Assembly: GCF_041053105.1 (NCBI RefSeq) | Contig: NZ_CP163444.1 | Location: 4,836,001 to 4,900,000, forward strand | Reading direction: 5' to 3' | From: Streptomyces sp. R44 | GTDB lineage: Bacteria > Actinomycetota > Actinomycetes > Streptomycetales > Streptomycetaceae | Length of the DNA: 64,000 nucleotides | In this document: positions 26,954 through 36,193 of the stretch, one piece after another | Numbering within the stretch: position 1 is the first letter of the stretch | How the letters are laid out: the number at the start of each line of letters is the position of its first letter | Position numbers and translations under genes: made by a program | Notes under the pieces: model-generated | What the model was told of the DNA's origin: nothing | The model's input: only the letters and a program-made list of their open reading frames with translations | Database searches by the model: none

Positions 26954-27379
26954 CGGGGCCGCGCCCGCGGGACGGCGCGCCCAGCGGCGCCTCCGCGTTT
27001 CGCGCCCGGACCCGCACCCCCTGTACCGAACTGGTGGTGCGGGTCCAGGCGCGTAAGCCTCTGGCGCCGGCAGGGCGCCGTCCGTTGTGCCCACCCTCCC
27101 CCAAGCTCTCGGCTTCGCTCGAGCAGGGGCCCCCACGCCCCTTGCGGAACGCCTGCCCACAACGGGCGCGGCGAGGGCGCCGCCCACAACGGGCGCGGGT
27201 CCGCGGACCGGCAGCTTCGGGGCCCGGGTCGGTGCAGGCCCCGCCCACCAGGGCCAACGACCCCGCGCGCCCCCCACCCCCGACGTGCCCCGTCCGTCCC
27301 CGCCCCGTGGCGCACGGTACCTTCGGGCCCCGGGCTCAATGGCCCGGTGGCAGTCCCGCCCCGCAGAGTGGAGTCAGAC
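26954..27379. repeat. Repeat-rich spacer (dispersed element copy 2)
   Basis: No gene seen. It carries a hairpin GACCCGCAC...GTGCGGGTC (about 27008-27044), a GGCGCCGGCAGGGCGCCGTC block followed by CGTTGTGCCCACC, the 31-base Streptomyces repeat at 27096-27126 and two CCCACAACGGGCGCG units (about 27152-27196). Most of these match the spacer at 17160-17440 in inverted orientation. The last 60 bases contain the promoter of the sacsin-like gene. Confidence 0.7.
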
Positions 27380-30300
27380 GTGAGCGTCAGCGTCCGGACG
27401 ACGACCGACGGAACCGACCCCTTCGGCACCGCACGGCTGCGGCGGGGCGTGCTCGACGCCTGGGGCGCGAGTCCGGCCCGCTTCCGGGAGGACGCCAACG
27501 CCGAGGAGGACCTGGCACTCGGCGGCTACCGCGACCGCCTCGTCGTCGAGCTGGCGCAGAACGCCGCCGACGCCGCCCACCGCGCCGGCGTCACCGGCCG
27601 CCTCCGCCTGACCCTGCACCCGGCGGACCACGAGGGCCCCGCGGTCCTCGCCGCGGCGAACACCGGCGCCCCGCTGGACGCCGCGGGCGCCGAGTCGCTG
27701 TCGACCCTCCGCGCCTCCGCCAAGCGCGAGCAGACGCACGGCGCCGTAGGACGTTTCGGCGTCGGGTTCGCCGCCGTCCTGGCGGTGAGCGACGAGCCCG
27801 CCGTCCTCGGCCGGCACGGCGGCGTCCGCTGGTCCCTCGCCGAGGCGCGCGAACTGGCCGCCGAGGCCGCCCGGTACAGCCCGGGCCTCGGCGACGAACT
27901 GCGCCGCCGCGACGGCCACGTCCCCCTCCTCCGGCTCCCGCTGCCCGCCGAGGGCACCGCGCCCGAGGGCTACGACACCGTCGTCGTCCTCCCGCTGCGG
28001 GACGCGGCGGCCGAGGACCTGGCGGAGCGGCTGCTCACCTCCGTCGACGACGCGCTGCTCCTCACCCTCCCGGGTCTCGCGGAGATCGTGGTGGAGACGG
28101 CCGGGGGCGTACGGACCGTCCGCCGCTCCGAGGACGACGGCTACGTCCGTATCGACGACTCGGCCACGGGCACCCACCGCTGGCGGACCGTCAGCCACGG
28201 CGGCCCTCTCGATCCGGGCCTCCTCAAGGACCGCCCGGTCGAGGAGCGGCTCCGCCCGCACTGGTCGGTCACCTGGGCCGTGCCGGTGGACGCGGAGGGG
28301 GCCCCGCGCTACCCCCGTACGACCCCCGTCGTGCACGCGCCGACCCCCACCGACGAGCCCCTCGGCATCCCCGCCCTGCTCATCGCGTCGCTCCCGCTGG
28401 ACACCGCCCGGCGGCACCCGGCGCCCGGGCCGCTGACCGACTTCCTGGTGCAGCGGGCGGCCGACGCGTACGCCGAACTCCTCGCCGACTGGCACCCGGT
28501 GACGACCGCGACCCTGGACCTGGTCCCCGGCCCGCTGGGCAAGGGCCATGTTGACGGGGCGCTGCGCGAGGCGATCCTGGACCGGCTGCCGAGGGTCGCG
28601 TTCCTGGCGCCGGCCGCGCCGTCCGAGGAGCTGCCCGCGCTGCGTCCGATCGAGGCGGAGGTCGTGGAGGGCGCGGGAGCGGAGACCGTCGACGTCCTCG
28701 CCGAGGTGTTCCCGACGCTGCTCCCCGCAGGCCTGGAGCGGCGCCCCGAGCTCCGTACCCTCGGCGTCGGCCGCGTACCCCTCACCGAGGCGATCGACCG
28801 CCTGGCCGGTGTGGACAGGGCGCCGACGTGGTGGTGGCGGCTCTACGACTCCCTCGCGGGCGTCGACCCGGACCGTCTGACGGGCCTGCCGGTGCCGCTC
28901 GCGGAGACCGAGGAGGGGGCCAGGGTCCGTACCACGATCGGCCCTCGGCAGGTCCTCCTTCCGCAGGAACGTACGCCCGCCGAGTTGACGCGGCTCGGCC
29001 TGAAGGTGGCGCACCCGGAGGCGGCCCATCCGCTCCTGGAGAAGCTGGGCGCGCTGCCGGCCACGCCCCGCGCGGTCCTGACGACCCCGCAGGTGCGGGC
29101 GGCGGTCGCCGCGTCGCTGGACGCGGGGGAGATCTGGGACGAGGACGCGGACGCGCCGGACGCGGAGGAGCTGGCCGACACGGTCCTCGCGCTGGTCCGC
29201 GACGCGGAGCTCGGCCCCGGCGAGGAGCCGTGGCTCGGCGCGCTGGCCCTGCCCGACGAGGACGGCGAACTGTCCCCGGCGGGCGAACTGGTCCTGCCGG
29301 GCTCGGCGTTCGCGGCCGTGATGCGCGAGGACGAACTGGCCTTCGTGGACGCCGAGCTGGCGTCCCGCTGGGGCGAGCAGCCCCTCGCCGCGTGCGGGGT
29401 CCTGGCGAACTTCGCCCTGGTCCGCGCGACCGACCTGGTCCTCGACCCGGACGAGGTGGAGCCCCGCGAGGGCGACTACCCGGAGCCGGACGACGCGGGC
29501 CTGCTCGACGCGGTCGACGTGTGGTGCGAGGACGTCCTGGACCGCCTCCCGATGACCGCCGTACCCCCCGTGGCGACGGAGATCGTGGCCGTACGGGACC
29601 TGGACCTGGTCGACGACGACGCCTGGCCGCAGGCGCTGGCGCTCCTCGCGCAGCCGCCGCTGCGGGACGCCCTGACCCAGCCCGTACGGATCCTCCTCCC
29701 GGACGGCACGACGGAGACGGTCCGCTCGTACACGGCGTGGTGGCTGCGCGACCACCCGGTCCTGGACGGCCGCCGCCCGGCGGGCCTGCGCGCCGAGGGC
29801 TCGGACCCGCTGCTCTCCGGCCTGTACGACTCCGCCGACGCGACCGGCTTCGAGGACGAGCAGGTCCTCCGCGCGCTGGGCGTCCGCACCTCGGTGGCGG
29901 CGCTCCTCGACGAGCCGGGCGGCGCGGCGGAGCTCCTGGCCCGCCTGGCGGACCCGACGCGGGAGGTGACGGCGCCCCAGCTGCACGCCCTGTACACGGC
30001 GCTGGCGGACCTGGACCCCGAGCAGGTGACGCTCCCCGATGACCTGCGCGCGGTCGTGGACGGCAGCCTGGTCGTGGTCGAGGCCTCGGAGGCCCTGGTG
30101 GCGGACGCCCCGGACCTCCTTCCGCTGGCCGGTGACCTGCCGCTCCTCCCGGTCTCCCCGACCCGCGCGGACGACCTGGCGGACCTCTTCCAGGTCCGGC
30201 GCCTGAGCGAGGCGGTGGAGGCGGAGGTCACGACGGTCGGCGAGGAGCACGAGGTCCCCCCGTCGGTCCACGCCCTCCTGGGCCCGGCGACCCCCTCCTC

Positions 30301-30511
30301 GTACATCGAGCACGAGGAACTCCACGCCGGCGGCGTCGAACTCGACTGGCGCCGCACCCCCGACGGCGTCGTCCACGCCGCCACCCTGGAGGGCGTCGCG
30401 GCGGGCCTCGCCTGGGCGGCCGGCCAGTGGCCCCGCCGCTTCGAGGTGGCGGCCCTCCTGGAGGACCCGTCGAGGACGGCGGAACTGGCGAGGGACCGCT
30501 GGTTCGACTGA
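27380..30511 (+). CDS. Sacsin/Hsp90-type GHKL ATPase-domain protein
   Basis: 1043 residues. The N-terminal 250 residues hold a GHKL ATPase: RDRLVVELAQNAADA (N box, catalytic Glu and Mg-binding Asn), LAAANTGAPLD (G1) and HGAVGRFGVGFAAVLAV (G2). This matches the sacsin N-terminal ATP-binding domain seen in many actinobacteria. The remaining 800 residues are a large alpha/beta region with no recognised partner domain. A chaperone-like role is an inference. GTG 27380 with GTGGAG upstream was chosen; an earlier GTG at 27347 is possible. Confidence 0.88.
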   Translation: MSVSVRTTTDGTDPFGTARLRRGVLDAWGASPARFREDANAEEDLALGGYRDRLVVELAQNAADAAHRAGVTGRLRLTLHPADHEGPAVLAAANTGAPLDAAGAESLSTLRASAKREQTHGAVGRFGVGFAAVLAVSDEPAVLGRHGGVRWSLAEARELAAEAARYSPGLGDELRRRDGHVPLLRLPLPAEGTAPEGYDTVVVLPLRDAAAEDLAERLLTSVDDALLLTLPGLAEIVVETAGGVRTVRRSEDDGYVRIDDSATGTHRWRTVSHGGPLDPGLLKDRPVEERLRPHWSVTWAVPVDAEGAPRYPRTTPVVHAPTPTDEPLGIPALLIASLPLDTARRHPAPGPLTDFLVQRAADAYAELLADWHPVTTATLDLVPGPLGKGHVDGALREAILDRLPRVAFLAPAAPSEELPALRPIEAEVVEGAGAETVDVLAEVFPTLLPAGLERRPELRTLGVGRVPLTEAIDRLAGVDRAPTWWWRLYDSLAGVDPDRLTGLPVPLAETEEGARVRTTIGPRQVLLPQERTPAELTRLGLKVAHPEAAHPLLEKLGALPATPRAVLTTPQVRAAVAASLDAGEIWDEDADAPDAEELADTVLALVRDAELGPGEEPWLGALALPDEDGELSPAGELVLPGSAFAAVMREDELAFVDAELASRWGEQPLAACGVLANFALVRATDLVLDPDEVEPREGDYPEPDDAGLLDAVDVWCEDVLDRLPMTAVPPVATEIVAVRDLDLVDDDAWPQALALLAQPPLRDALTQPVRILLPDGTTETVRSYTAWWLRDHPVLDGRRPAGLRAEGSDPLLSGLYDSADATGFEDEQVLRALGVRTSVAALLDEPGGAAELLARLADPTREVTAPQLHALYTALADLDPEQVTLPDDLRAVVDGSLVVVEASEALVADAPDLLPLAGDLPLLPVSPTRADDLADLFQVRRLSEAVEAEVTTVGEEHEVPPSVHALLGPATPSSYIEHEELHAGGVELDWRRTPDGVVHAATLEGVAAGLAWAAGQWPRRFEVAALLEDPSRTAELARDRWFD

Positions 30512-31502: not shown

Positions 31503-32633
31503 TCAGTTCGGCCAGGTGATGGTCTGTGCTTCCGGAGTGAGTGTGATCCGGAAGCGGTCGAGGCTGGGGGAGCCGTCCTGGCGCCATCGAGCCACGTTTT
31601 CCTCGATCCGGTTCCACAGGCGGTCCGGACCGCCTTGGCGGACGATCCAACGATCGTCGCCGTCACGGTGGAGCGCGGCCCACGCTCCCGCAGCCACGTC
31701 GATGAGTACGGGCCGCCCCTCGCCGTCGTCGGAGGAGAGCCGGATGAGCTGAGCCCGAGGCGCGGCGAGTTGGGCGACGAAGCGGGTGGTCCAGTCGTCC
31801 AAGGCGTCCGGGCCGAGGGCGGTGGCGCGTTCCTCGCCGCTCGTGAGATCGGGGAGTACTCCCAAGGACGGTGGGACCTGGGGGCGGGCCGGCATGAAGG
31901 AGATGCGGCCGCCCAGGAGCCGGCCGTGGGCGGCGCCGTCGGCGTCGATGATGAGGCGGGCGAGCTCGGAGGAGTACATCCAGCCGCACACGGTGGCCAG
32001 GATCTGGCCGCCGGGTCTGGACTGGGCGAGCCAGGCGGGTGGGATCGACAGAACTCCGCAGGTGGCCACGATCCGGTCGTACGGGCTGCCGTCCGGGTCC
32101 CCGGCGAGACCGTCCCCGACGAGCAGGCGGGGCATGTGCCCCGTGCTGCCGAGGGCGGTGCGGGCACGGACGGACACGTCCTCGTCGACCTCGACCGAGG
32201 TCACGAGGTCGTCGCCGAGGCGGTGACACAGGAGGGCGGTCGAGTAGCCGGTACCGGTGCCGATCTCCAGGACGCGCATGCCGTCGTCCAGAAGGAGCTC
32301 TTCGAGCATCCGCACCACGAGGCTCGGCATGGTGCTGGAGCTGGTCGGAGACCGGAAGATCCGGCCCTGAATGTCGCCCGGGGTGATCGTCCCGGCGATC
32401 TGGGTCACCAGCGACTCGTCCGAGTACGCGGCCGGGAGCCACGCCGGGTCCTCCGGCATGACCGGCTCCCAGCCGGTGGGGCCGTTGCCGTCGACCCGCC
32501 GGAAGTAGCCGCCGCGTAGGAACTCGTGGCGAGGTGTTTGGACCACGGCCCGGCGCCAGCCGGCCGAGCGCAGGTGACCACCTGCGGCCAGCCGGTCGGC
32601 CAGGTCCCGTCGAAGGATCGCGTCGTCGTTCAC
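31503..32633 (-). CDS. PIMT-like SAM methyltransferase of a graspetide cluster
   Basis: 376 residues. The SAM fold is clear (VLEIGTGTGYSTALLC motif I, followed by VEVDEDVSVRAR and YDRIVATCG). It is homologous to protein-L-isoaspartate O-methyltransferase with about 150 extra C-terminal residues, as in the PIMT homologues of ATP-grasp RiPP clusters. There the enzyme methylates an Asp of the modified peptide so it cyclises to aspartimide. GTG 32633 overlaps the ATP-grasp stop (GTGA), so it is coupled to it. It is the last gene of the cluster. Only the region from 32633 down is coding; the frame upstream is a shadow. Confidence 0.9.
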   Translation of the reverse strand: MNDDAILRRDLADRLAAGGHLRSAGWRRAVVQTPRHEFLRGGYFRRVDGNGPTGWEPVMPEDPAWLPAAYSDESLVTQIAGTITPGDIQGRIFRSPTSSSTMPSLVVRMLEELLLDDGMRVLEIGTGTGYSTALLCHRLGDDLVTSVEVDEDVSVRARTALGSTGHMPRLLVGDGLAGDPDGSPYDRIVATCGVLSIPPAWLAQSRPGGQILATVCGWMYSSELARLIIDADGAAHGRLLGGRISFMPARPQVPPSLGVLPDLTSGEERATALGPDALDDWTTRFVAQLAAPRAQLIRLSSDDGEGRPVLIDVAAGAWAALHRDGDDRWIVRQGGPDRLWNRIEENVARWRQDGSPSLDRFRITLTPEAQTITWPN

Positions 32634-33580
32634 GTGGCCTTCCTCTCCAGAAGGTCGGCCATGGCCGCGACCATGGGCAGTCCCGTCTCCGGCGCCATCC
32701 ACGCCCACTGGCCTGAGGGGTTGCACTCCAGGAACCACCATGCCCCCGCACGGTCCACCGCGAAGTCGAAAGCGCCGAAGACCAGTCCGAAGTGGTCGAG
32801 GTAGCGGCGGAGGGCGTCGGTGATTCCCGGCGGCGGTTGGACGACGGTGTAGTTGAGCCGGTCGTAGTCCGTGCGCCAGTCGAGCAGCCCGGAGTCGATC
32901 CGTACGCAGAACACCTGCTGGCCGATGACGGTCACACGAACATCGGCGATCTTGTCGATCCGATGCTGGAACAGGTGGGCGGTGCCGGCCACACGCTCGT
33001 CGATCTGGTCCAGAGTGACCTCGCCGACCTCGACGGTGCAGGACACCCCGTCGACACGGTAGAGGGGCGTCGACAACGGCTTGTAGAGAACGGGCCCCTG
33101 GGCCCGGATGAAGGACCGGGCGGCGACGGGGTCCGACGTGACCAGTGTCGGCGGGACCCGGAAGCCGCACCGAAGGGCGGCCGCGAGGCCGGAGGGCTTG
33201 AACTCGGCATCGCCGATGCGGTGGGGGTGGTTGACGTACAGGCAGTCGGGGAGCGAGGCCAGGATGCCACCGAGACCGTAGCGGGCCTGGGTGACCGCGA
33301 AACGGGCGTCCTGTTCGTCGAGGTGGGTGAAGGTGAAGCCGGAGGGCCGACGGTAGTACAGCGACCGTACGCGGGAGAGGTCGGCGGTCCGCGTGGGGGT
33401 GGACAGTGTTCCTGCGATGCCATGAGGCGTGAGGGTGGCCGCGAACGACAGGGTGGCGGGGAAGTCCCCCGAGTCGAGCCGCACGACCGGGACGCCCCGG
33501 TCGTGCAGCTCTCCGATCACCAGGTCGGCCGTGGGGTCGTCGATCATGGTGACGACCAGCACCGGACCGATGTGGGTCAC
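32630..33580 (-). CDS. ATP-grasp ribosomal peptide maturase (graspetide ligase)
   Basis: 316 residues. ATP-grasp enzymes of this family join side-chain hydroxyl or amine groups of a RiPP precursor to side-chain carboxylates. Visible: the N-terminal domain (VLVVTMIDDPTADLV, YYRRPSGF), then the ATP-grasp core with VLYKPLSTPLYRV (lysine near residue 180), RVTVIGQQVFCVRID, and FGAFDFAVDRAGAWWFLECNPSGQWAW with Mg-binding Asp, Glu and Asn. This closely resembles the SAV_5884-type maturases. GTG 33580 overlaps the precursor stop (GTGA), so precursor and ligase are coupled. Confidence 0.93.
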   Translation of the reverse strand: MTHIGPVLVVTMIDDPTADLVIGELHDRGVPVVRLDSGDFPATLSFAATLTPHGIAGTLSTPTRTADLSRVRSLYYRRPSGFTFTHLDEQDARFAVTQARYGLGGILASLPDCLYVNHPHRIGDAEFKPSGLAAALRCGFRVPPTLVTSDPVAARSFIRAQGPVLYKPLSTPLYRVDGVSCTVEVGEVTLDQIDERVAGTAHLFQHRIDKIADVRVTVIGQQVFCVRIDSGLLDWRTDYDRLNYTVVQPPPGITDALRRYLDHFGLVFGAFDFAVDRAGAWWFLECNPSGQWAWMAPETGLPMVAAMADLLERKAT

Positions 33581-33888
33581 TGGTCGGAATCGTTCCCGGT
33601 GTCGCTGTCCCCGCCGCCGGAGCCGCCCCCGCTGGACCCGTCGGCCGGGTTGCCGGTGTTGGTGGCCGGGTTGGTGCCGGTACTGGTGCCGTGCGCGGGC
33701 ATCTCCATGACCTGGCCCGCCTGGTCGAAGTAGCGGGCGGTCTGGCTGTCCGGGTCGACCTCGGCCCGCGACCAGGCCGGAGCCATGGCGGGGTACGGGA
33801 CCATGCGCTGCACGCCCCAGGGGGCGGGGGTGGCGTGGCCCATGGGCAGGGGCGATCCGGTCGGGAGCCGGTCCATGTGGTGGAACAA
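33577..33888 (-). CDS. Graspetide (ATP-grasp-modified RiPP) precursor peptide
   Basis: 103 residues from TTG 33888, which has GGAG six bases upstream; ATG 33876 (99 residues) lacks a close ribosome site. The leader carries the ATP-grasp target signature: PAPWGVQRMVPYP (about 21-33), VDPDSQTARYFD (44-55) and EMPAHGTS (62-69). The core (about 67-103) has hydroxyl residues clustered first (GTSTGT, ATNT), one Asp-Gly at 83-84 in a Gly/Ser linker, and acidic residues at the end (DSDTGNDSDQ). Predicted product: Thr/Ser-to-Asp side-chain esters made by the ATP-grasp enzyme, with Asp83-Gly84 as candidate aspartimide site for the PIMT-like enzyme. Confidence 0.88.
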   Translation of the reverse strand: MFHHMDRLPTGSPLPMGHATPAPWGVQRMVPYPAMAPAWSRAEVDPDSQTARYFDQAGQVMEMPAHGTSTGTNPATNTGNPADGSSGGGSGGGDSDTGNDSDQ

Positions 33889-33916
33889 GGGATTCTCCAG
33901 GCTTGGTTCGCAGGGG

Positions 33917-33934
33917 CATCCGGCCCGCCGGATG
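33917..33934. other. Hairpin upstream of graspetide precursor
   Basis: CATCCGGC (33917-33924) and GCCGGATG (33927-33934) are perfect 8-bp arms with a 2-bp spacer, 28 bp upstream of the precursor start. It may be a terminator/attenuator separating the two small upstream ORFs from the precursor, or an mRNA-stabilising stem. Confidence 0.4.
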
Positions 33935-33985
33935 GAAGGGTCGGGGTCTCGGCCGGCATGCGCCGGGGTTCTCCGTGAGGGCGGG

Positions 33986-34195
33986 CTACGGGACAGCGGC
34001 GTGGATGTTGTCCGCCGAGGTCGTCCACTCGACGCCGTTCGTGGGTCGAATGTGGGCGACGCGGACCACGCGGCCGTCGTTGTGCAGCTCGTGCGTCACC
34101 GCCGTCAGTTCACCTTCGCCTTGACTGGCGATGTCGCGAACGCGGGTGTGAAGCAGGGGGTGTTGCTCGTAACCGTCGTGACCGACCTGGTTCAC
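33986..34195 (-). CDS. Small hypothetical protein, coupled to upstream small ORF
   Basis: 69 residues from GTG 34195, which overlaps the stop of the preceding small ORF (GTGA). The C-terminal half (GELTAVTHELHNDGRVVRVAHIRPTNGVEW, residues about 29-58 in part) looks like a small beta-barrel with alternating hydrophobics, similar to short hypothetical proteins near XRE regulators in Streptomyces. No function is known. It precedes the graspetide precursor on the same strand, so it may be part of the cluster or of the adjacent regulatory unit. Confidence 0.6.
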   Translation of the reverse strand: MNQVGHDGYEQHPLLHTRVRDIASQGEGELTAVTHELHNDGRVVRVAHIRPTNGVEWTTSADNIHAAVP

Positions 34196-34365
34196 GTCTT
34201 CGTCTCCCGTACGGCTCCGACCTCGGCCCGCCGCATGAACGTCACCCAGCCCGCAACCGCCCGCATGCGGAGCGCCCGGCTGGGAGCGCCCGGGGTCGGG
34301 TCGGGGGAGTGGTGGATCCGTCCGCTGGATCCGGGCGTTCGGCGGGGCAGTTCCGAGGTGGTCAT
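34192..34365 (-). CDS. Small basic hypothetical protein
   Basis: 57 residues from ATG 34365, chosen because GAGAGGAG lies seven bases upstream; the open frame to 34398 has no better site. It is Arg/Pro-rich early and has a hydrophobic/basic segment RALRMRAVAGWVTFMRR (about 30-46) that could form a short amphipathic helix. No family recognised. It starts the minus-strand unit facing the XRE regulator. Confidence 0.55.
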   Translation of the reverse strand: MTTSELPRRTPGSSGRIHHSPDPTPGAPSRALRMRAVAGWVTFMRRAEVGAVRETKT

Positions 34366-35614: not shown

Positions 35615-36193
35615 ATGGCAGACGAGACGGCGAACGCGCAGGGTACGGCCGGGTTCATCTTCGAGATGGGCGTGCTCAAGAACGCCAAGCGGACCGGATG
35701 GTGGTTCACCGGCAACAACAATCCCGAGTCGATCGCCGAACACTCGTTCCGGGTGGGCGTCATCGGCGCCGTCCTGGCCATGATGGAGGGTGTGGACCCC
35801 GCCAAGGTCGCCTTGATGTGTCTGTTCCACGACACGCAGGAGACGCGGATCGGGGACATCCCGCACATCGGGCGCCGCTACATCGACGCCGCGACGAATC
35901 AGACGGTCACCGCCGATCAGGTGTCCGCCGCGCACCCGGCGGTGAGGGCCGGGGTGCAGCGTGTGGTGGAGGAGTACGAGGCCAACGACACGCCCGAGGC
36001 GATCGTGGCCAAGGACGCGGACAAGCTGGAGTGCCTCGTGCAGGCCGTCGAGTACCGCGCCCAGGGCAACACCCTGGTCCAGGACTGGATCGACACGTCC
36101 CTGAACAGCCTCAAGACGCCGTCCGCCCAGGCCCTCGCCGAGGCCGCGCTCACCATGTCACCGCTGGAGTGGCGCAAGACCTTCCTCGGCTGA
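35615..36193 (+). CDS. HD-domain phosphohydrolase (YfbR/HDDC2-like)
   Basis: 192 residues of the HD superfamily. Metal ligands are visible: His in ESIAEHSFRVG, the HD pair in MCLFHDTQETRIGDIPHI and the downstream Asp in IVAKDADKLECLVQAVEY. Such proteins hydrolyse deoxynucleoside 5'-monophosphates or related compounds. It shares an operon with the XRE regulator (17-bp gap, CGGAGG ribosome site). It may be a passenger of the graspetide locus or a separate metabolic gene. Confidence 0.88.
   Translation: MADETANAQGTAGFIFEMGVLKNAKRTGWWFTGNNNPESIAEHSFRVGVIGAVLAMMEGVDPAKVALMCLFHDTQETRIGDIPHIGRRYIDAATNQTVTADQVSAAHPAVRAGVQRVVEEYEANDTPEAIVAKDADKLECLVQAVEYRAQGNTLVQDWIDTSLNSLKTPSAQALAEAALTMSPLEWRKTFLG

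Follow-up and report, generated by a model that had tools for sequence, protein, structure and literature searches.

Group 13 graspetides are known as graspimiditides, and surveys predict 962, 1,326 and 1,432 clusters of this group (PMC13001092). Four products are listed as characterized: fuscimiditide, amycolimiditide, SsfA(BM) and albusimiditide, the latter named as a graspimiditide from Streptomyces albidoflavus J1074 (PMC13001092). In SsfA from Streptomyces sp. F-3, the GluC fragment covers residues 63-97; it includes Asp81-Gly82-Asn83, and four of its last 12 residues are Asp. Together with its ATP-grasp enzyme, SsfA loses 90 Da, which corresponds to five esters, and Asp81 is converted to a mixture of isoaspartate (isoAsp) and Asp (PMC10787088). 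Here, we analyze a stretch of 64,000 nucleotides from Streptomyces sp. R44 (contig NZ_CP163444.1, positions 4,836,001 to 4,900,000; "the window"), which codes for a three-gene graspetide cluster and, upstream of it, for a pair of small genes that we refer to as sm57 and sm69.

Judged from the encoded proteins, the window cluster is very likely that of a group 13 graspetide of a Streptomyces. On the minus strand, GTGA overlaps join the precursor gene to the gene for an ATP-grasp ligase (33577-33580) and the latter to the gene for a PIMT-like methyltransferase (32630-32633). All three proteins score above the curated cut-offs (given in brackets): the precursor with 78.7 bits for TIGR04186 (25) and 53.1 bits for PF14408 (25), the ligase with 435.8 bits for TIGR04187 (350), and the methyltransferase with 448.3 bits for TIGR04188 (380) and 81.8 bits for PF01135 (20.3). 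A preliminary description of the locus had proposed the same three overlapping genes, and their identities are hereby settled. The locus has the features by which group 13 is recognized: a TIGR04187-type ligase, a TIGR04186/PF14408 precursor, an adjacent PIMT homolog with a C-terminal extension and a WxxxGxP motif, and a core with hydroxyl residues, a loop Asp and acidic residues. Compared with four close relatives, the ratios of nonsynonymous to synonymous substitution rates (dN/dS) are 0.19-0.27 for the precursor, 0.17-0.21 for the ATP-grasp enzyme and 0.23-0.31 for the methyltransferase (comparisons with one relative, locus L041, partly involve fragments). The family scores, the dN/dS ratios and the homologous loci confirm that the three-gene observation is real and goes beyond chance.

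The ATP-grasp enzyme carries ECNPSGQ at residues 285-291, which represents a motif (E-x-NP-x-GQ) shared by 63 of the 69 sequences in an alignment that includes the window protein. Its nearest PDB entries by sequence are 9bou, 5ig8, 7mgv (CdnC) and 7m4s (AMdnB). In the methyltransferase, the PIMT-like part covers residues 100-216 and contains GTGTG at 125-129, while WRQDGSP is found at 350-356. Among 66 aligned methyltransferases, again including that from the window, 65 have GxGxG and 61 have WxxxGxP anywhere in the sequence; the latter is discussed as a possible substrate-binding motif (PMC13001092). The nearest solved structure by sequence is the PIMT from T. maritima (1dl5).

Homologous precursors were collected with the window peptide (104 sequences) and with a 97-residue relative (165 sequences, 120 of them listed), resulting in 172 distinct homologs. 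Each of these stands for a cluster at 90% identity, and unlisted cluster members may match the window core exactly. The peptide family is already known and is widespread in Streptomyces, and the window cluster adds one member to it. Of 150 Streptomyces genomes, 106 have a TIGR04187 match above the cut-off. With the precursor as the single query sequence, matches were obtained in 147 of 392 genomes. The genome of strain R44 (8.89 Mb, one contig) has a single TIGR04187 match. Among 80 loci from named genomes that were retrieved by their precursor, 79 matched the ATP-grasp enzyme and 75 the methyltransferase (one of the latter matches, in L073, being only a distant fragment of 72 residues), and most loci retained the order precursor, ATP-grasp enzyme, methyltransferase.

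The core region has Thr/Ser at positions 68-78, one Asp-Gly at 83-84 and Asp at 94, 96, 100 and 102, followed by Gln103; the last 12 residues (GGDSDTGNDSDQ) thus contain four Asp. This is the layout given in the preliminary description. The pattern HG[TA]S[TS][GA]TxPxTxT-loop-DxDxGxDxD[QE] fits 163 of the 172 listed homologs, and its hydroxyl and acid positions are conserved. So is the loop Asp, which is present in all 163 and is followed by Gly in 149. The class assignment, ester stem and imide at Asp83-Gly84 that had been predicted agree with this pattern. The nine homologs that do not fit show Gly instead of Ser69 (three cases), Ile instead of Thr72 (one), a shortened tail (one) or other small changes (four). 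As Gly takes its place in three of these nine, Ser69 probably does not serve as a donor for an ester. All homologs end in DQ (171) or DE (1), which places the C-terminal carboxylate at a fixed position, one residue past the last Asp. A P[WF]G motif is found in 163 of the 172 homologs; it parallels RPFG, which is implicated in leader recognition for fuscimiditide (PMC13003496). The loop comprises 15-16 residues in 60 and 8-12 residues in 103 of the pattern-fitting homologs, with 15 residues between the inner pair in the window peptide.

These data bear on the proposal that the cluster may specify a new kind of aspartimide-containing ribosomally synthesized and post-translationally modified peptide (RiPP) with a distinctive core. 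None of the 172 listed homologs has precisely the same 38 core residues. For the Gly-rich loop class of 15-16 residues, no published structure was found in the literature covered, with the report on albusimiditide lying outside that coverage, so that a structure with such a long loop may not have been solved yet. However, the core has the same length in 59 of the 172 homologs, one of which (P0015) differs at a single position and six at two. In addition, the family is covered by curated models (TIGR04186/PF14408), has a name and includes four characterized members (PMC13001092). SsfA fits the residue register, even if the loop of SsfA-like homologs is shorter (9 versus 15 residues), and the precursor family can therefore largely be regarded as already characterized. 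A new kind of RiPP is thus very unlikely, and the claim of a distinctive core does not hold.

By analogy with characterized homologs, we infer the following chemistry, order of steps and number of esters. The ATP-grasp enzyme would recognize the leader through the P[WF]G motif. ATP would activate the acidic groups near the C-terminus, which would be linked to the side chains of Thr, beginning next to the loop and proceeding outward, resulting in a nested ladder of esters (Thr78-Asp94, Thr76-Asp96, Thr72-Asp100 and Thr70-Asp102). A fifth, outermost ester might connect Thr68 to the C-terminal carboxylate, as has been proposed for SsfA. The methyltransferase would then act on the cyclized peptide and methylate Asp83 in the 15-residue Gly-rich loop. 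Collapse of this methyl ester would generate an aspartimide at Asp83-Gly84, which might be hydrolyzed, mainly to isoaspartate.

Counted outward from the loop, the hydroxyls (78, 76, 72, 70, 68) are spaced by 2, 4, 2 and 2 residues, and the carboxylates (94, 96, 100, 102, C-terminus) by 2, 4, 2 and 1. Such mirrored spacings speak for a nested ladder with its outermost ester on the C-terminal carboxylate, and for the window peptide we infer a connectivity with five esters from the sequence. Alternatively, the peptide might have four nested esters (Thr78-Asp94, Thr76-Asp96, Thr72-Asp100, and either Thr70 or Thr68 to Asp102) and a free C-terminal carboxylate. This corresponds to amycolimiditide, which has four esters, and characterized graspimiditides are stem-loops held by Thr-Asp esters (PMC13003496, PMC13001092); moreover, the C-terminal block contains exactly four Asp. 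However, a loss of 90 Da and up to fivefold methanolysis were observed for SsfA (PMC10787088), whose last 12 residues likewise include four Asp, and the invariable DQ/DE end fixes the position of the C-terminal carboxylate. The four-ester variant is a real possibility, but less likely than not.

Another alternative concerns the state of the loop. The functional product might be the isoaspartate, or a mixture of Asp and isoAsp, with the aspartimide being a mere intermediate. SsfA was obtained as such a mixture, its imide being hydrolyzed without an enzyme (PMC10787088), and the imide of fuscimiditide opens to 95% isoAsp (PMC13001092). On the other hand, three of the four characterized graspimiditides contain the aspartimide as purified (PMC13001092). 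A hydrolyzed end product is a serious possibility, if somewhat on the less probable side, and we consider the aspartimide to be the predicted product of the window cluster.

The closest characterized relative of the window peptide appears to be SsfA, according to the residue register. Among the 172 listed homologs, 37 have 97 residues with Glu62 and Asp81-Gly82-Asn83. Because they match its register, SsfA very probably belongs to the precursor family of the window. SsfA, SsfB and SsfM resemble the window proteins in comprising a precursor, an ATP-grasp enzyme and a PIMT homolog; both precursors have four Asp among their last 12 residues, the 97-residue homologs with the register of SsfA have the same C-terminal Asp pattern as the window peptide, and the Asp-Gly in the loop is modified in SsfA. 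SsfA is pentacyclic, and five esters are predicted for the window peptide. They would differ in the loop: the SsfA-like homologs of 97 residues that were inspected have 9 residues between the innermost Thr and Asp, compared with 15 in the window, and the loop of SsfA is probably likewise shorter. Amycolimiditide (Amycolatopsis cihanbeyliensis) and fuscimiditide (Thermobifida fusca) share with the window prediction a stem of Thr-Asp esters and an aspartimide in the loop, and their PIMT homologs act on the cyclized peptide, as proposed here. However, amycolimiditide has four esters and fuscimiditide two, and in fuscimiditide only 10 residues lie between the inner Thr7 and Asp18. For the window cluster, SsfA is a closer model than fuscimiditide, with which it had initially been compared.

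Several points weigh against the assignment as a pentacyclic aspartimide graspetide. The ring connectivity of SsfA could not be determined by its authors (PMC10787088), and graspimiditide loops are quoted as having 10-12 residues (PMC12291112), fewer than the 15 in the window peptide. SsfA was compared via its published residue register rather than its own sequence, and the product of the window peptide is assigned from the genes. The loop is devoid of Asp-Gly in 14 of the 163 pattern-fitting homologs; Thr68 is replaced by Ala in P0057, and Thr72 by Ile in P0164. The gene set is not always complete: in four of the 80 loci (L050, L052, L070 and L074), the ATP-grasp enzyme is matched but the methyltransferase is not, and for a further precursor homolog (L112) neither enzyme is matched within 6 kb. 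Finally, albusimiditide has a gene cluster structure like that of amycolimiditide and SsfA, represents the main Streptomyces cluster, and forms a tetracyclic stem-loop with an aspartimide; this would argue for four esters rather than five.

The features of the locus are listed in Table 1. The start codon assigned to the precursor is preceded by GGAG at a distance of a few bases, and it is supported by the N-terminal sequences of its homologs, 94 of 104 starting with MF, MY or VF (search with the window peptide). Two genes on the opposite strand follow beyond sm57. The HD-domain protein has a homolog in 8 of the 80 tgmA loci, and its membership in the cluster is doubtful.

Table 1. Genes of the graspetide locus and its surroundings (coordinates refer to the window).
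Feature	Position	Strand	Remarks
Graspetide precursor, 103 aa	33577..33888	-	TTG start; TIGR04186 and PF14408 matches; core from His66: HGTSTGTNPATNTGNPADGSSGGGSGGGDSDTGNDSDQ
ATP-grasp ester ligase, 316 aa	32630..33580	-	GTG start overlaps precursor stop (GTGA); TIGR04187 match
PIMT-like peptide aspartyl methyltransferase, 376 aa	31503..32633	-	GTG start overlaps ATP-grasp stop (GTGA); TIGR04188 and PF01135 matches
sm69, 69 aa	33986..34195	-	GTG start; no family model; weakly predicted SH3-like barrel; homologs precede RiPP genes of several classes
sm57, 57 aa	34192..34365	-	ATG start; upstream of sm69 with GTGA overlap; no family model
Putative helix-turn-helix regulator, 360 aa	34515..35597	+	divergent to the cluster; assigned by eye only
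HD-domain protein, 5'-deoxynucleotidase-like	35615..36193	+	downstream of the putative regulator; PF13023, 103.1 bits

Some related proteins have unusual arrangements. One precursor homolog (P0022, 166 residues) has an N-terminal extension of 63 residues (VWVLRP...WITTDPDSL), which resembles a small upstream protein fused to it; in L047 and L068, open reading frames similar to this extension precede the precursor. The genome of strain R44 codes for a second PIMT-like protein (G000:C1:3080124-3081023; L117, 4116-5066, minus strand), which has 272 bits for TIGR04188 and is thus below the cut-off. It adjoins a long protein whose C-terminal part is FHA-domain-like, as judged by eye. A class of PIMT-like methyltransferases linked to FHA-VWA is mentioned in PMC10787088.

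The unexpected element of the locus is the pair sm57-sm69, not the peptide cluster. The preliminary description does not mention it, even though both genes are within the interval described there (to 34365). Neither protein matches Pfam or NCBIfam, even when Pfam matches with E<=1 are considered. We found no description of the pair in the literature searched, where it had no name to query by and where most subscription papers and all supplements were outside the coverage. Both reading frames are intact in L037, L038 and L039 and are interrupted in L041, in which the ATP-grasp match is also partial; sm69 is whole in the database copy from that strain (P0116). For the close relatives analyzed above, and with the same restriction for L041, dN/dS is 0.11-0.19 for sm69 and 0.36-0.66 for sm57. 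According to inspection by eye, 5 of 36 sm69 homologs (P0120, P0125, P0130, P0136 and P0142) have an sm57-like part fused to sm69, which links the two. The AlphaFold model of sm69 (predicted local distance difference test 84.8, predicted template modeling score 0.68) has five strands, and its resemblance in fold to barrels of the 40S ribosomal and Tudor types is middling. The prediction of a small SH3-like barrel of the SH3/KOW/Tudor kind is weak; a binding role would fit this model.

Matches to sm69 occur in 36 of 392 Streptomyces genomes, at no fewer than 72 places (up to 15 candidates being scored per genome), 27 of which are strong (at least 60 bits) and 45 weak. Fifteen of the strong places are just in front of RiPP genes: ten precede graspetide genes (with a broken ATP-grasp frame in G224 and G374), three albusnodin-type lasso genes and two AmcB/AmcA cyclophane genes. 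A further one precedes a protein that matches HExxH peptide hydroxylases below the cut-off. The families were checked with proteins from L179, L184 and L189 (cut-offs in brackets): AmcB has 439.8 bits for NF041718 (425), AmcA 79.8 for NF041721 (40), albusnodin 72.1 for NF033525 (30) and its cyclase 709.1 for NF033561 (300), while the HExxH protein misses the cut-off (31.4 bits for TIGR04267; 40). Another albusnodin-type case (G155) has a cyclase with 711.7 bits, and the second AmcA case (G266) has 77.9 bits; one further albusnodin-type case (G116) was judged by eye from its precursor core and a shortened cyclase frame. As for the weak places, two of the 45 (G361 and G078) adjoin a TIGR04187 match by their coordinates, contexts not having been tallied systematically. 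A chance figure of 2.6e-51 for the adjacency of sm69 and RiPP genes is an indication only, as it takes no account of relatedness, supposes that each genome has 7,500 genes, and is based on a query from a RiPP locus. Speaking against the link, 11 of the 27 strong places adjoin no recognized RiPP gene. Within limited flanks, the sm69 profile matched few loci: 2 of 16 with an albusnodin cyclase, 1 of 14 with a more distant cyclase, 2 of 24 with AmcA and 5 of 80 with tgmA (where one match is weak, with an E-value of 0.0007). As most such RiPP loci are devoid of sm69, the pair is an optional, moving module.

Some individual loci illustrate the surroundings of the pair. In the genome of strain R44, an sm69-like stretch and an AmcB radical S-adenosylmethionine maturase share one open reading frame (G000:C1:4750187-4751687; L179, 3685-5194). 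An AmcA precursor (FDNRPTWDNPTPVFDNRPTWDDWSKKS) follows and an sm57-like match is just upstream, so that this is a second RiPP cluster behind an sm69-like protein. In L189 (3222-4434), sm57-sm69 are followed by a 50-residue peptide with repeated LTRRLDH and by the 307-residue protein with the sub-threshold HExxH match; this is possibly a further RiPP type. The closest sm69 homolog (88%; L181, G305:C20) precedes a VOC-type protein (by eye) and has no graspetide genes behind it, while a homolog of the window gene at 27347-30511 is nearby; this context suggests that biosynthetic genes were gained or lost next to a pair that stayed in place. The sm69 homolog P0127 has an AmcB/AmcA-like remnant at its C-terminus (RLATVPRSVITNRPSWDNWKNK), which looks like the result of a deletion of downstream RiPP genes.

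We interpret the pair as a shared RiPP cassette with a probable regulatory role, and together with the divergent putative regulator it probably controls expression. In several loci, the pair is accompanied by a protein that looks DNA-binding and is encoded either divergently or upstream. Apart from that of the window, only the candidate from L196 was scanned; it has 86.1 bits for a transcriptional-regulator model with a cut-off of 350. The putative regulator of the window matches neither Pfam (including E<=1) nor NCBIfam. A tblastn homolog is found in 7 of the 80 tgmA loci. Homologs are also divergent from sm69 in L121, L126 and L130, and L122 has a short fragment with 62.5% identity. It is tempting to speculate, with not quite an even chance of being correct, that sm57-sm69 and a divergent or upstream DNA-binding protein form a portable control cassette which was independently joined to graspetide clusters with various core types as well as to albusnodin-type lasso, AmcA cyclophane and possibly HExxH-hydroxylase clusters, with sm69 and the regulator sensing or gating the production of widely differing peptides.

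With its Gly-rich loop of 15 residues, the window peptide is a further member of an established Streptomyces family, and the five-by-five mirror spacing of hydroxyls and carboxylates provides a connectivity model for SsfA-type peptides. If sm57-sm69 is indeed a shared cassette, it could serve as a bait that is blind to class, with which unknown kinds of RiPPs might be detected in Streptomyces even if their modifying enzymes are not known.

Group 11 and group 13 graspetides may co-occur with DUF397-DUF5753 XRE regulator pairs (PMC13097080). Like sm57-sm69, these combine a small protein with a DNA-binding protein beside graspetide genes of Actinomycetota, and they are likely functional analogs. 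In contrast to them, sm57, sm69 and the putative regulator of the window match no Pfam model at E<=1. By this analogy, sm57-sm69 would be a distinct pair in a role similar to that of DUF397-DUF5753.

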